Shown here: piece by piece, positions 2,955 to 43,087 of the stretch
Layout: each line of letters starts with the position of its first letter
Numbering within the stretch: the first letter of the stretch is position 1
From: Pseudobdellovibrionaceae bacterium
GTDB taxonomy: Bacteria > Bdellovibrionota > Bdellovibrionia > Bdellovibrionales > Bdellovibrionaceae
Direction of reading: 5' to 3'
NCBI GenBank assembly: GCA_019637915.1
Contig: JAHBUV010000001.1
Coordinates: 2,450,565 to 2,514,564, forward strand
Length of the DNA: 64,000 bases
Made by a program: the position numbers and the translations under genes
The notes under the pieces: model-generated
Seen by the model: the letters and a program-made list of their open reading frames with translations, nothing else
What the model was told of the DNA's origin: nothing
Databases searched by the model: none

Positions 2955-2968
2955 CCTTTGATCAAAGG
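2955..2968 (-). promoter_or_regulatory. Shine-Dalgarno-sequestering palindrome of gdx
   Basis: CCTTTGATCAAAGG is a perfect 14-base palindrome lying between the riboswitch 3' end and the gdx start. Its right arm contains most of the AAAGGAG ribosome-binding site. It shares its first two bases with the end of the aptamer, so folding of the aptamer and of this hairpin would compete. That is the layout expected for translational control by ligand; the mechanism is inferred. Confidence 0.6.
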
Positions 2969-3008
2969 CGTCGTCTTGTCTTAACCGGGTACGGCGCGTC
3001 TCGTCCGG
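2967..3008 (-). ncRNA. Guanidine-III riboswitch (ykkC-III class) of gdx
   Basis: Read on the minus strand, the 42 nt before gdx begin CCGGACGAG, continue GCGCCGTACCCGG and end GACAAGACGACGCC. From memory, the guanidine-III aptamer of Thermobifida fusca has the same order CCGGACGAG / GCGCCGUACCCGG / GACAAGACGGCGC; about 36 of 41 aligned positions agree, including the pseudoknot-forming CCGG segments and the ACAAGAC strand. One base change (2971, pairing with 2994) puts a C-A mismatch in one helix. The gene controlled is a guanidinium exporter, the usual partner of this class. Confidence 0.88.
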
Positions 3009-3186
3009 ATGGAATTCCGCGCCGGAATGGCGCTGAGGAAAGTCTTACCGCTTTCTGACGGCGCCCACAAGCTTTTCGGCCCGATTCTCGAACCTGCCTC
3101 AGGGGGAGATGCTCTTAAATTCGATCTGGACCGCAAATGAATCATGCAGATCAAGCAACGGAACCGAAAATGTTCTTCAATCATCA

Positions 3187-3215
3187 TTGACATTTATTCC
3201 ACTAAGTGGTATAGT
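3187..3215 (+). promoter_or_regulatory. Sigma70-type promoter of higBA
   Basis: TTGACA at 3187-3192, a 17-base spacer and TATAGT at 3210-3215, close to consensus. The start of transcription would be about 3222, ten bases before the toxin ATG at 3232, so the leader is very short. Confidence 0.75.
3195..3213. promoter_or_regulatory. Palindromic operator over the higBA promoter
   Basis: CCACT-A-AGTGG at 3199-3209 is a perfect inverted repeat, extended by TAT/ATA on both sides after one mismatch. It fills the spacer and overlaps the -10 box. HigA antitoxins bind such palindromes through their helix-turn-helix domain and repress their own operon, so this is the probable autoregulatory site. Confidence 0.6.
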
Positions 3216-3231
3216 GTAATTCGAGGCTTTC

Positions 3232-3522
3232 ATGATCCGGAATTTCGGGAATAAGGTCGCCCAGGATATTTGGGAAACGAACTCTTCAAAGTCTCTTCCC
3301 AAGGAACTTTGGGTTCGAGCCAAGGCCCTGCTGACGATCATGCACGGAACGACGGATCTGACGGACTTGAAAATCAAAGGGCAGCCACCGAACATCCGGC
3401 TTCACAAGCTGAAAGGAAGTCGGGGGGACGAGTGGAGCGTCACGATCCGGCTCCCCTGGTGCGTGACTTTCAAGTTCAAATCCGGCGATTTTTCTGACGT
3501 GAAGATCGAGAATTATCACTGA
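3232..3522 (+). CDS. higB: HigB-like toxin (RelE superfamily mRNA interferase)
   Basis: 96 residues, the usual size for HigB. Recognisable pieces are the N-terminal MIRNFGNKVAQDIWET, the middle RLHKLKGSRGDEWSVTIR and the C-terminal SDVKIENYH, matching HigB proteins that cleave mRNA in the ribosomal A site. The gene order toxin before antitoxin, with an eight-base gap to the higA ATG, is the HigBA arrangement and differs from RelBE. Expression should be kept low by the palindrome in the promoter. Confidence 0.87.
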   Translation: MIRNFGNKVAQDIWETNSSKSLPKELWVRAKALLTIMHGTTDLTDLKIKGQPPNIRLHKLKGSRGDEWSVTIRLPWCVTFKFKSGDFSDVKIENYH

Positions 3523-3529
3523 GGTGTTT

Positions 3530-3790
3530 ATGATTAAAAATCCCAATCCCCTCCATCCTGGAGTCGTCCTCAGCGAAGTTTATATGACTGAAATGGGGCT
3601 CAACCAGACCCAGCTTGCGGAAAAATGCGGTTGCTCGCACCGCAAGATCAACGAAATCGTCAACGGGAAGCGGGCGGTTTCCCCCGAGTTCGCGTTGGTC
3701 CTCGAGAGGGTTCTTGGGACAACGGCTGAAATGTGGGTCCGGATCCAGGCGGAGTATGATCTTTGGGTGGCCCGTCAGAAAGTCGCTTGA
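3530..3790 (+). CDS. higA: HigA-like antitoxin, XRE family
   Basis: 86 residues from the ATG at 3530, chosen over an in-frame GTG at 3524 because GAGG (3521-3524) sits at the right distance. It starts with NPLHPGVVLSEVYMTEMGLNQ, the HigA/VapI signature, followed by a helix-turn-helix in QTQLAEKCGCSHRKINEIVNG and the tail LGTTAEMWVRIQAEYDLW. It neutralises the upstream toxin and, by family knowledge, represses the operon. Translation is probably coupled to higB because the stop and ribosome-binding site touch. Confidence 0.9.
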   Translation: MIKNPNPLHPGVVLSEVYMTEMGLNQTQLAEKCGCSHRKINEIVNGKRAVSPEFALVLERVLGTTAEMWVRIQAEYDLWVARQKVA

Positions 3791-3994: not shown

Positions 3995-4360
3995 TCAGTT
4001 GGCTTTTTTGGCTTTGGATTTGCCCTTCTTGGGGGCTTTTTGCTCGAGGCCCTCGTTGGCGGGCATGCGGTGGCTGGGTTGGCGCTGCTCGGCGACCATT
4101 TGCTGGAACTGGGCGTTCTCGATCTTGTAGCTCAAGCCGTTGTACGGCTTGCCGGCGAGTTTCACCAGGCGGCGCGAATTCACCATCGGATATTGGTTCT
4201 TCGCGTCCGTCGCCGGCGGCGGCAGGCCCGCCGACTCCGCGGCCGGGGGCAGGTCCGTCCGGCTCTGGGTTGAAGAGGGCGTGTCCAGGCGTTTGTACAG
4301 GAGCGCGCCGAACAGCGCCAGGGCCGTGAAACTCAAAAGCGTGGGAAAGATCTTTTTCAT
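3995..4360 (-). CDS. Small membrane-anchored protein with Lys-rich tail, unknown function
   Basis: 121 residues. The second of two ATGs (4360) is chosen because AAGGAGA is seven bases before it. Residues 1-22 (MKKIFPTLLSFTALALFGAL) form a signal anchor; the rest is Pro/Gln-rich and low in secondary-structure cues, ending in a basic tail (KAPKKGKSKAKKAN). It follows the VWA lipoprotein by 13 bp on the same strand, so the two are probably cotranscribed and may act together in the envelope. No family recognised. Confidence 0.7.
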   Translation of the reverse strand: MKKIFPTLLSFTALALFGALLYKRLDTPSSTQSRTDLPPAAESAGLPPPATDAKNQYPMVNSRRLVKLAGKPYNGLSYKIENAQFQQMVAEQRQPSHRMPANEGLEQKAPKKGKSKAKKAN

Positions 4361-4373
4361 CGCCATTCTCCTT

Positions 4374-6074
4374 TTACGGGCAGGTGTACTCGAGTTTCAC
4401 GGTCGATCCGGCCGGGATCTGCGGGTTGAACACGAGGCGGCCGTTGTCGATGCTGGTGGTGTAGGCGTAGGGCGGGTTCACCGTCACGTTGACGGTGCCG
4501 CCGACCGGGTTCGGGCACTGCAAGGGCAGCGAAGCCTGGCTGCGCACGATGGCGTCCTTGAAGTAGCGCAGGTTCGCGGAGTAGTCGCTCTCGCAGATGC
4601 TGCCGATGTAACCGTTCGTCAGGTTCGACAGCTCGGCGTACTTCACGCCGTAGTGCGAGGCCGTGCCCTCGGCGTCCTGCTTCTGTTTGCACAGGGCATC
4701 GCCCGGGCGGACGATGATGCTGTTGACGCTGAAGCGTTTCTCCGCGCCGAAGATCTGGCGCACGTAGTTCACGTAGGTTTGCGGCAGATCGTCGCTCTCC
4801 AGGGGCTTGTTCTTCTCGCTTTCATAGGCGGCTTGCGTGTTGTCGCCGCCGATGCTGCGCTCGTCCTCGTCGGAGAGGATGATGACCGCGAGGCCGGCCT
4901 CTTTGCGGTAACAGCCGGAGCTGCCGTCGACGCCGGGTTCGCCGTTCCACAGGTGCCACCAGGAGGCCTTGATGGCGCGCTCGTCGTCGGTGCCTTCCCA
5001 GCCGGCGCCGATGTTCTCGATGGTGCGGGTGAAGATGCCGTAGATGTCGGGCGTGCCGGACTTCAGGATGTACTGGGGACTCAACGGATTGTTCGACCAG
5101 TTGTAAGAGGCGCCCCAGTAGTAGGCCGAGCCCTCGGAGATCTGCTGGGCGCGGGTGAGCGTCGCGCACATCTGCCAGTCGAAGCCTTGCGCGCTCAGGT
5201 CGTTGACGAAGCCTTCCAGGCGCGAGGCCAGGCGGCGGTTGTCGGCGAGCATCGACTTCGAATCATCGACCACCAGCAGGATGTCGAGCTTGTTGTTGCT
5301 GACCGTGATGTTGTGGGTGGAGCTGACCGGCGTTCCCGTGTTGCCGCCGCCGTTGGGCACGATGACGGTGAGGGGGCTCGTCGCCGTGTAGGCGTTGTAA
5401 CCGCTCTGGTTGGCGGTGAGCCAGACTTCGTAGGTGCCGGGACCGGCCGACAGGAAATCCGGGGTGGCGGAGCTGCCCGACATGCCGGGGATGGAGACCG
5501 TGACGCCGCCGCGGCGGACCGTCCACACGTAGGACACGCCCGGGGGAACGCAGTTGCCGGCGATCGTCGGATTCGCGCCCGCCAGCGTGACGGTCGTTTT
5601 GTCGCCGTTGATCTTCGGATTGCAGGCGATGTTGGGCAAACCGCCGCCGCCGCCTTGCACGGTCACCTGCAGGGGCGTGTTCAGTTGGTACGAGGTCCAA
5701 CCGATGGACGTGGCGTCGAGGGAGATGAAGTAAGTGCCCGCGCCCGCGCCCAGGAAGTCCGGCGTCGAGGTGGCGCCGCCGAGGCCGTTGATGGTGACGG
5801 GGGCGTTGTCCCGCGTGACCGTCCAGTTGTAAGTGACGTTCGACGGATCGCAATTCGCGGCGAGATTCGGATTCGCCGACGTCGACGTCAAAGTCAGCGA
5901 CGTGGCGCTGCCGTTCATCTTCGGATCGCAGTTGATCGTCCCGCCCTGCGGGGTGACGCCGCCACCCGGTTTGTCGGAATTTTCCTGAGCCGAAAACCGC
6001 ACCGGCGAGCACGAGCTGAGCGCCACCAAAGACAAAGCGGCGCCGAAAAAAGCGAATGAAAACCGTCGAGGCAT
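4374..6074 (-). CDS. Lipoprotein with two Ig-like repeats and a von Willebrand factor A domain
   Basis: 566 residues, ATG at 6074. The N-terminus has a lipoprotein signal with lipobox LSSC (Cys 22). Two repeats of about 95 residues follow (about 45-140 and 148-240); both contain CxPKxNG, an NPxxAxNC segment, a YxWTVxR strand and PDFLxAGxGTY, suggesting beta-sandwich modules with a disulfide. A VWA domain begins near residue 265 with the metal-ion motif VVDDSKSM (DxSxS). The C-terminal 70 residues are again beta-rich. VWA domains bind protein partners through a metal ion, so an adhesive or scaffolding role outside the inner membrane is likely. Downstream partner: the small anchored protein. 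Confidence 0.82.
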   Translation of the reverse strand: MPRRFSFAFFGAALSLVALSSCSPVRFSAQENSDKPGGGVTPQGGTINCDPKMNGSATSLTLTSTSANPNLAANCDPSNVTYNWTVTRDNAPVTINGLGGATSTPDFLGAGAGTYFISLDATSIGWTSYQLNTPLQVTVQGGGGGLPNIACNPKINGDKTTVTLAGANPTIAGNCVPPGVSYVWTVRRGGVTVSIPGMSGSSATPDFLSAGPGTYEVWLTANQSGYNAYTATSPLTVIVPNGGGNTGTPVSSTHNITVSNNKLDILLVVDDSKSMLADNRRLASRLEGFVNDLSAQGFDWQMCATLTRAQQISEGSAYYWGASYNWSNNPLSPQYILKSGTPDIYGIFTRTIENIGAGWEGTDDERAIKASWWHLWNGEPGVDGSSGCYRKEAGLAVIILSDEDERSIGGDNTQAAYESEKNKPLESDDLPQTYVNYVRQIFGAEKRFSVNSIIVRPGDALCKQKQDAEGTASHYGVKYAELSNLTNGYIGSICESDYSANLRYFKDAIVRSQASLPLQCPNPVGGTVNVTVNPPYAYTTSIDNGRLVFNPQIPAGSTVKLEYTCP

Positions 6075-6295
6075 GAGTTCCCCCTATGCCTTGATGTTAG
6101 GAGATTCCGTCTGGAAATGGGACTGGACCCGACCATAATCATCGCGCGGCGGGAACGCCGTCTCATCCCGGGACGCCGTCAGCGCGCCCTTCTCCGGACG
6201 AAAGGTCAGCTCTCGAGAAGTTCGACACTCCCCGCGGCTTTCCCCTGCTGGCGCGTCTTTCCCGGGGAATTTTTTGTCGTCCGGGGTTTCGATCG

Positions 6296-6301
6296 TACAA
6301 T
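6296..6301 (+). promoter_or_regulatory. Promoter of the candidate small RNA
   Basis: TTGTCG at 6274-6279, a 16-base spacer and TACAAT at 6296-6301. Predicted start about 6307-6308. No protein gene on the plus strand follows, but a folded segment and strong terminator do. Confidence 0.5.
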
Positions 6302-6306
6302 GAAAG

Positions 6307-6384
6307 AGCCGGGTCCCATCCCGTCCCGTCCCGGGATCGACTCGGTTGGCCCTCCCCCGATTGCGGGCGGAGGGCTTTTTTTTT
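6307..6384 (+). ncRNA. Candidate small RNA, about 77 nt
   Basis: Between two minus-strand genes lies a plus-strand unit: promoter, then a stem ATCCCG/CGGGAT (6318-6323 with 6332-6337) with the C-rich loop TCCCGTCC, extended outward by GGGTC/GACTC (6311-6315 with 6339-6343), then a terminator hairpin. The C-rich loop and the CCTCCCCC stretch at 6351-6358 resemble the anti-Shine-Dalgarno seeds of trans-acting small RNAs. There is no convincing reading frame or ribosome-binding site. It is not identified with any named RNA. Alternative: a terminator that only blocks antisense transcription into the neighbouring gene. Confidence 0.5.
6349..6384 (+). terminator. Strong intrinsic terminator
   Basis: GCCCTCC (6349-6355) pairs with GGAGGGC (6369-6375), with an inner stem CCCG-ATTG-CGGG, followed by nine T (6376-6384). 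The T run is on the plus strand, so it does not end the neighbouring minus-strand genes; it ends the candidate small RNA. Confidence 0.85.
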
Positions 6385-6395
6385 CGGGGCGCGGG

Positions 6396-7646
6396 TCAGG
6401 GAAGAACGGCCAGGCGCGGACGGATTTTTTGCAGCAGCAGATTCCAGCGCTGCTGGAATTCGAGGAAGCCCTGATGGGCGCGGTCCAATTGCTCCGTCGA
6501 GGGAAAGGGCATCTTCCTGACGGTTTCACTGAGCTCATCGCAGATCCGGTCGATGGCGAGGATCTGCTCCCGGGCGGCGGCGCCGAGGTCCACGCCGTCG
6601 GTGGGATTGGCGAACTCGCCCCAGTGGGCGGGCAACAGACGCAAGGGCGTCGGCCAGGCGCTGGGCGGGATCGGCACCTGCCACGGGGCGGGCCTGTCCT
6701 CGGGGATCTCCGCGAACCACTGGGCGCTGTGGTGCACGTCGCGCAGGATGTCCTCGCGCAGGAGGTCCAAGGCCTTGAGGAAGAACAAACGCTGGCCGGA
6801 GGTTTCGAAGTTGCGCATCTCAAAGGCCGTTTCGGGCTGGGCCTCGGACACTTTGAAAAACAAGGCGAAAGCGTCGGGGCCTTCCGCCACCAGGCAACCG
6901 AGCAGGCGCAGGGCCAGGCCCAACGGCGTGCCTTCGATGCCGAGCGCCCAGCGCATCCATTCGAAGTCATCCGGCTGCACGCGGTGCAGATCCTGCTGCG
7001 GGCGGGGCGCGGGTTGGCTGAGCTGGGCCGTGCCGCCGCTGCTGAAGGTCGGGCTGACCCGGGCCCAGATGAGGTCGGGCGTGGTCACCAGGTCCATTTC
7101 AAAGAGGCGCTTCACATCGGCGAAATCCGTCATGCTCCAGAGCGGCGCCAGCAGCTGCAGGTTGCGGGCGTGAAGGGAGGGCAGGCGGAAAAAGGGCTCC
7201 TTGATCAGCGAGCGGAGTTCATGGCGGGCTTCGAGCGGCAACTGGCCCAGGCCCAGGAACTCCAGCACGTCGTACAAATCGTGCAGGTTTTCCTGATCGT
7301 CGATGAACAGCACGTCCTCCGAAAGGATGAACTCCAGACAAAAGTCGCGGGTCCCCACGGGATCGCGGCGGGCGGCCTGCAGCAACAGATCGTGGTAATG
7401 GCTGTGGTCGACGGAAAAGAGATGGAAAAACAGCTCGCGCATTTTTCCCAGGAAAGCCCGCGTGTCGAGATCGAGGACCCGCTGCAGCAGCAGGCGGATC
7501 TCACGGGCGCTCTCCTGGGCGCCGGAGTCATCCTCGATGACCACGCCGTCCTCATCCACGGGCAGAATGGCGGCGTCTTGCAGCACACCAATGCGACTTA
7601 GCGCGTCATCCAGTGAGAGATGGGCGATCTCGAAACCCAGGTTCAT
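6396..7646 (-). CDS. Uncharacterised cytoplasmic protein
   Basis: 416 residues from ATG 7646 (MNLGFEIAHLSLDDALS); the frame is open further upstream but that part overlaps the protease gene. No signal peptide or transmembrane helix is visible. The sequence is rich in Leu, Asp and Glu, alpha-helical in character, with an acidic VDEDGVVIEDDSGAQ segment near the N-terminus. I do not recognise a family. It lies 10 bp after the trypsin-like protease stop, so both are probably in one transcript, protease first. Confidence 0.72.
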   Translation of the reverse strand: MNLGFEIAHLSLDDALSRIGVLQDAAILPVDEDGVVIEDDSGAQESAREIRLLLQRVLDLDTRAFLGKMRELFFHLFSVDHSHYHDLLLQAARRDPVGTRDFCLEFILSEDVLFIDDQENLHDLYDVLEFLGLGQLPLEARHELRSLIKEPFFRLPSLHARNLQLLAPLWSMTDFADVKRLFEMDLVTTPDLIWARVSPTFSSGGTAQLSQPAPRPQQDLHRVQPDDFEWMRWALGIEGTPLGLALRLLGCLVAEGPDAFALFFKVSEAQPETAFEMRNFETSGQRLFFLKALDLLREDILRDVHHSAQWFAEIPEDRPAPWQVPIPPSAWPTPLRLLPAHWGEFANPTDGVDLGAAAREQILAIDRICDELSETVRKMPFPSTEQLDRAHQGFLEFQQRWNLLLQKIRPRLAVLP

Positions 7647-7656
7647 CTCGCTTTCA

Positions 7657-8586
7657 CTACCGCGAAGGGGGGAGGGCGCCAAGCAAAAACGCCGGAAAGA
7701 CATGCTCGCCGGCGGCGGTGGGAACATCCGCCGGGGCCTCGCAATGTCGGGCGTTTTCGTCACAACGGTTGAGACGGCGGCAGAGCTGCCCTGGCGGCGT
7801 CCAGGTGCTGTCGGGATAGCCCCGCACCAGCAGACCCGTGACCTCGCCCGCTTCATTGAACACGGGCGAGCCGGAGTTGCCGGGGAAGGCATCGAGGTTC
7901 GCGCGGTCATAATTTTTCTCGAGATTCAGGACGCGGCCGGTGCTGAAACGCTGGGAACCGCCGAAGGGGTGGCCCACCATTGAAAGTTTGTCACCCACCT
8001 GAGGGCGGCGCGAGGCCCAGGTCAAAGGCGCGCGGTCGCGAACCGGCCTTTGCAAACGGATCAACGCGAAATCATCGCGGAAGTCGATGGCGCCGGTTTT
8101 GGCGTCCGTGACGGAATCATGGGCGGCCTCGATGACCTCGGCGCAATCATAAAAGCGTTCGGCTTCAAGACCGCTGGTCGCGGGCTGATCACCCGCGGCC
8201 TCTTGAGTGAAATCAAACAACCAGGTGAAATCCGAGCATTGCGGCGTGACCGTCCGGCGGGCCCGCCCGGAATTCAGCATGCAATGGCCGGCGGTGACCA
8301 GCAAGTCCGGCGCGATCAGGAAACCCGTGCAACTGACATAGAGGGATTGCTGCCGCGCCCAGGTTTCGTCCGCGCACAGGCCGATGTTGTCGGCCATGGT
8401 GTCCGTCATCAGATCGCGGCGGCCGTCGGGGCGTTCGGTGAGGAAGGCTTTCGGCACCAGGATGGCCACGGCGCGGGCTTTGTCGCGCCAGGGGGCCGGC
8501 GCCTCGGCGATCGGGCGTGCCCCGTTGGAACCGAAAATGTTGGCGGCGGCCAGGGACGCGATCAGCAAGGTTGAAACAAAGCCCAT
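7657..8586 (-). CDS. Secreted trypsin-like serine protease (S1 family)
   Basis: 309 residues with an N-terminal signal sequence (MGFVSTLLIASLAAANIFG). The catalytic triad is visible: His in VTAGHCM (about residue 100), Asp in DDFALIRLQRP (about 173) and Ser in FPGNSGSPVFN (about 236). CTGFLIAP before the His motif and VGHPFGG between Asp and Ser fit the V8-like/S1B glutamyl endopeptidase branch. Several Cys could form disulfides in the periplasm or outside the cell. No obvious Shine-Dalgarno before the ATG at 8586, so initiation may be weak or leader-poor. Confidence 0.88.
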   Translation of the reverse strand: MGFVSTLLIASLAAANIFGSNGARPIAEAPAPWRDKARAVAILVPKAFLTERPDGRRDLMTDTMADNIGLCADETWARQQSLYVSCTGFLIAPDLLVTAGHCMLNSGRARRTVTPQCSDFTWLFDFTQEAAGDQPATSGLEAERFYDCAEVIEAAHDSVTDAKTGAIDFRDDFALIRLQRPVRDRAPLTWASRRPQVGDKLSMVGHPFGGSQRFSTGRVLNLEKNYDRANLDAFPGNSGSPVFNEAGEVTGLLVRGYPDSTWTPPGQLCRRLNRCDENARHCEAPADVPTAAGEHVFPAFLLGALPPSR

Positions 8587-42996: not shown

Positions 42997-43034
42997 GTCC
43001 GGGAAGGCCGTCTCGAAACGACACACCTGTCTTT

Positions 43035-43067
43035 GGTCCTCCTTTGTCTCAAGGGAGGACCTTTTTT
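43035..43067 (+). terminator. Intrinsic terminator after the PfkB gene
   Basis: GGTCCTCC (43035-43042) pairs with GGAGGACC (43054-43061), followed by six T (43062-43067). It ends the rlmN-pfkB transcript before the coiled-coil gene. Confidence 0.85.
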
Positions 43068-43087
43068 CGCCGATAAATCATTGAAGA

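Follow-up and report, generated by a model that had tools for sequence, protein, structure and literature searches.

Several described RNAs offer a reference for small RNAs with exposed C-rich loops. Xanthomonas sX13 is a trans-encoded intergenic small RNA of ~100 nucleotides (nt) that carries C-rich apical loops and is active without Hfq (PMC3771888), and in staphylococci the UCCC seeds of S. aureus RNAIII and RsaE pair with G-rich Shine-Dalgarno sequences (PMC9217828). The catalogue of small RNAs known from the Bdellovibrionaceae is short. The attack-phase RNAs APsRNA1-7 and merRNA, of 98–655 nt, were mapped in strain HD100 of B. bacteriovorus, and for the small RNAs mapped in this species there is little conservation backing a function (PMC3627812). 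Here we analyse a 64-kb stretch of the genome of a Pseudobdellovibrionaceae bacterium, an uncultured relative of predatory Bdellovibrio (contig JAHBUV010000001.1), referred to below as the window, and describe at positions 6274–6384 of its plus strand a compact unit of promoter, hairpins and terminator with a single C-rich hairpin loop in its first stem. We consider it very likely that this unit is real as a structured RNA, and probable that it is a true small RNA gene; the family is new, whereas the type of element is an ordinary one.

Anatomy of the unit and its counterpart in a sister genome

The initial annotation of the window had described a TTGTCG-16-TACAAT promoter followed by two stem-loops and nine T. 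All of these parts are present, at the following positions:

6274–6301, plus strand: sigma-70-like promoter TTGTCG-16-TACAAT, matching the consensus at 9 of 12 positions
6274–6279 and 6296–6301, plus strand: its −35 (TTGTCG) and −10 (TACAAT) elements, separated by a 16-nt spacer
6307–6384, plus strand: predicted small RNA of ~77–78 nt, delimited by a 5′ end expected from the −10 element, by the fold and by the counterpart in the sister genome G001
6307–6347, plus strand: hairpin 1, 41 nt, with outer stem AGCCGGGUC/GACUCGGUU and inner stem AUCCCG/CGGGAU
6324–6331, plus strand: 8-nt apical loop of hairpin 1, UCCCGUCC, the proposed pairing seed
6348–6384, plus strand: intrinsic terminator, formed by hairpin 2 (6348–6376) and a U9 tail (T run at 6376–6384)

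The promoter is the top-scoring site within 130 nt upstream, and the window contains a single case of a promoter joined to a terminator hairpin in a span of 110 nt; when the whole window was dinucleotide-shuffled, 2 of 150 versions had such a unit. For the 79-nt stretch 6306–6384 the minimum free energy is −46.8 kcal/mol, and folding of 200 shuffles gave no structure as stable (z −4.67). The GC-rich terminator hairpin directly abuts hairpin 1, holds CCUCCCCC in its 5′ arm and, at −22.0 kcal/mol, is the most stable among the 88 sites with runs of at least six T on both strands of the window. An intrinsic terminator with a U tract, as expected of a trans-encoded small RNA, is found both here and in G001.

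The open positions of the RNA are confined to the apical loops, the U tail and short internal-loop or bulge positions, the loop UCCCGUCC having a computed unpaired probability of at least 0.9. The C-rich single strands that had been proposed as the pairing region therefore stand for this 8-nt loop but not for the CCUCCCCC run, which is fully paired inside the terminator stem and cannot serve as a free seed, so that only the loop could pair. The RNAs of both genomes could alternatively form a local CCCG-UCC-CGGG hairpin.

We assign the RNA to the plus strand because the G-U pairs and the T run agree. Read on the plus strand, the wobble pairs of the structure, the two in hairpin 1 among them, are without exception G-U, whereas the minus strand would have A·C in their place; T runs follow the hairpins on the plus strand only. 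The plus strand is also the more stable one, with −46.8 versus −40.9 in the window and −38.5 versus −33.9 in G001.

G001 is the Bdellovibrionaceae metagenome-assembled genome ACE_BDE5 (contig JAHBUU010000007, 3-Mb genome), the sole other genome of the genus that was compared. Its counterpart lies at L010 2891–2820 on the minus strand, in the syntenic intergenic region and with matching relative strand and layout. Folded alone, the G001 RNA presents the architecture of the window RNA: a 7-bp outer stem, an internal loop, a 3-bp CCG/CGG stem, an 8-nt loop ACCCGUCC and the terminator. Its hairpin 1 reads CUGGGCG-CGA-CCG-ACCCGUCC-CGG-GAC-CGUCCAG and its terminator ACCCUUCGGGC-UUCGU-GCCCGAGGGGU followed by T6-G-T6, where the letters differ from those of the window and the pairing is kept. 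The loop core CCCGUCC is identical in the two RNAs (UCCCGUCC versus ACCCGUCC), giving WCCCGUCC for the loop as a whole, and the outer stem of hairpin 1 shows four double and two single changes, all of them pairing-preserving.

In an alignment fitted to the structure, and hence biased towards it, 96% of cells pair with seven double changes, against 34–59% and 0–1 in controls slid by 1–3 columns. Since this pair count leans to the structure, the separate folds of each genome make the cleaner argument. R1, a covariance model made from the window sequence alone, places the syntenic spot top in the 3-Mb genome of G001 (26.0 bits, E 0.01), and its best unrelated match in the family, a plain terminator, scores 22.4 bits. 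The G001 −10 element, TAAAAT, aligns with that of the window. Conservation with compensatory changes in relatives, which the initial annotation had put forward as a check, is thus seen in G001, where both position and structure are kept. The computed results comprise the make-up of the sequence together with its conserved position, strand and fold, and the two genomes share a conserved structure without a conserved reading frame, as expected of a small RNA.

Genomic context, distribution and RNA chaperones

Two genes flank the unit:

6396–7910, minus strand: convergent gene whose product has no Pfam match and no known function; the gene's stop codon lies 12 nt past the RNA 3′ end
4374–6074, minus strand: divergent gene with a weak PKD-like match; its start codon precedes the promoter by 200 nt

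The unit is antisense to both, as had been described, and both are real genes that are syntenic in G001, where the orthologue of 6396–7910 is 52–53% identical and the homologue of 4374–6074 is 61% identical. Gene order is shared with G001 over five genes: a Zip-family transporter, a trypsin-like protease, 6396–7910, 4374–6074 and 3995–4366. A search for the 6396–7910 orthologue across the genomes of the class found none outside G001; the neighbour protein is equally genus-limited, and its co-occurrence with the RNA is therefore uninformative.

Upstream of 4374–6074, a 12-nt block, TATGGTCGGGTC, is identical in both genomes (window 6126–6137, minus strand; L010 about 3135–3146) within a gap that is otherwise divergent between them. 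This block is perhaps a promoter or leader element of the 4374–6074 gene. Elsewhere in the window, a Guanidine-III riboswitch (2965–3033, minus strand; Rfam RF01763, 59.1 bits) has 20 nt downstream of it a small open reading frame, 2622–2945, that resembles an SMR-family efflux protein. Genes for a HigB-like toxin (PF05015) and a helix-turn-helix antitoxin lie at 3187–3790 on the plus strand, preceded by TTGACA-17-TATAGT, the top promoter-like site of the first 14 kb.

An Rfam covariance scan of the window unit gave best scores of 16.6 and 15.9 bits against thresholds of 49.5 and 41, and a scan of the G001 counterpart likewise placed none above threshold, in agreement with the claim that the RNA was undescribed. 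Model R2 was run on the order (141 genomes) and the class (144 genomes) and returned only the two genus members; none of the 142 further class genomes gave a homologue. A family-wide model search covering 20 genera found no homologue outside the genus, and searches with R1 and R2 detected no paralogue in the genome that the window belongs to. When 84,980 named genomes were scanned with proteins as guide, the same sister species was the only one reached.

The remaining model matches, outside the genus or elsewhere (G066, L054, L055, L056, L057 and L058), are terminator-like or due to chance; L054 lies downstream of a gene for an RRM protein, and L058 falls between convergent genes in the genome that holds the window. 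A plain DNA search of 60 relatives yielded terminator fragments and chance matches only, and the pattern of loop core plus T run, followed across the family, hit the syntenic pair and otherwise chance places. Within the window itself, the highest-scoring further model match (17.2 bits) is a strong terminator, GGTCCTCCTTTGTCTCAAGGGAGGACC-T6, at 43004–43069 on the plus strand, whose upstream part is unlike hairpin 1.

Profiles of Hfq (PF17209) and ProQ (PF04352) gave no match in the window's own genome (G000) or in G001, while the E. coli controls were positive. This places the RNA outside the Hfq/ProQ-dependent class, which requires an encoded Hfq or ProQ, and since neither protein was found, the Hfq-independent C-loop mode (PMC3771888) is the nearest precedent.

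A proposed trans-acting small RNA and its rivals

With moderate confidence we read 6307–6384 as a true small RNA gene, transcribed on its own and belonging to one Bdellovibrionaceae genus, with a C-rich loop that would act as a seed to repress mRNAs in trans without Hfq. Its own promoter and intrinsic terminator would yield an RNA of ~77 nt, expected to fold as two back-to-back hairpins, of which the first would display the 8-nt loop WCCCGUCC. The loop is proposed as the seed because its core is kept while the stem has changed by compensation, and as a sequence feature such a loop, conserved and rich in C, suggests pairing in trans with G-rich segments of mRNAs. It may pair with G-rich stretches near mRNA start codons, and the target mRNAs would then be repressed without Hfq in the manner of sX13 and the staphylococcal UCCC-loop RNAs. 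A broader proposal, in which a new Hfq- and ProQ-independent family uses the CCCGUCC loop to regulate a group of mRNAs at their G-rich start regions, perhaps in concert with the convergent genus-specific neighbour gene, is tentative. The compensatory changes, seen in a genus where neither Hfq nor ProQ was detected, single out a concrete RNA and a concrete loop on which Hfq-independent regulation can be probed.

Several results weigh against a trans-acting small RNA, beyond the structural bias of the pair count. The conservation rests on two sequences of one genus, and the G001 promoter is weak, matching 8 of 12 positions overall with a poor −35. A blind MAFFT alignment is shifted by one position in the outer stem; from it, RNAalifold finds the terminator and the local CCCG/CGGG hairpin and does not recover the outer stem. 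Matches of the loop complement GGACGGG before an ATG lie mostly within coding sequence, in a search for which the reversed-pattern control is unfair because of codon use, and for the neighbour's start region the computed pairing with the loop does not exceed that of shuffled controls. From the original proposal of a trans-acting RNA of about 77 nt, the non-coding plus-strand RNA with its conserved structure is retained, but the pairing with Shine-Dalgarno sequences gains no backing from these searches.

The main rival is a cis role by convergence with 6396–7910, which we regard as rather unlikely. Here the unit would act through polymerase collision, or through pairing with read-through mRNA of 6396–7910, setting the 3′ end of that mRNA or its read-through into 4374–6074. 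The RNA 3′ end lies at a similar distance from the stop codon in the two genomes (12 and about 18 nt), which is consistent with such a role. On the minus strand of the gap no T run follows the hairpins, so that no intrinsic terminator is seen there for minus-strand mRNAs and the convergent gene appears to lack one of its own. The presence of gene and RNA in the same two genomes also fits, but the co-occurrence of a genus-specific gene with a genus-specific RNA is trivial, and collision alone needs neither a conserved loop nor compensatory changes in hairpin 1.

A unit that serves as terminator or insulator only, with a promoter arisen by chance and a hairpin that blocks antisense transcription into the convergent gene without any functional RNA, is improbable. 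It would agree with the terminator and T run being the best-supported parts, with the weak promoter in G001 and with model matches elsewhere that are ordinary terminators. Such an insulator, however, would need no separate hairpin 1 with a kept loop and four double changes, and a promoter and terminator within 110 nt of each other are rare by chance.

Far less probable is a structured element of a minus-strand mRNA, either the 3′ untranslated region of 6396–7910 or the leader of 4374–6074: the minus-strand fold does beat its shuffles (z −2.76), but the plus fold is better in both genomes, the wobble pairs become A·C and the T runs are on the plus strand only. A short coding gene can be set aside as the least plausible of all. 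An ATG with an open frame is present in both genomes (at 6300, or after AAGGA in G001), but the one at 6300 shares bases with the −10 element and lies outside the predicted transcript, and the conserved CCCGTCCCGGGA block falls in different frames that give unrelated peptides, so that the plus frame is not conserved as a peptide and the initial description of the unit as non-coding holds.

Comparison with described small RNAs

The favoured trans-acting RNA shares with sX13 the intergenic origin, the stable stems and a C-rich apical loop. The two differ in that sX13 has several C-rich (4C/5C) loops, whereas the window RNA has one, UCCCGUCC, plus a terminator, so the multi-loop arrangement is not found here. 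The loop core here is CCCGUCC, and the lineage is another than that of sX13, the comparison being made by description and by the Rfam scan.

RNAIII is much longer than the window RNA. The likeness to RNAIII and RsaE lies in the loop, which starts with UCCC in the window and with ACCC in G001, and the corresponding pairing is here a proposed one. With APsRNA1-7 and merRNA, the window RNA has in common its intergenic position, a narrow, lineage-limited distribution and its occurrence in the same family of predatory bacteria.
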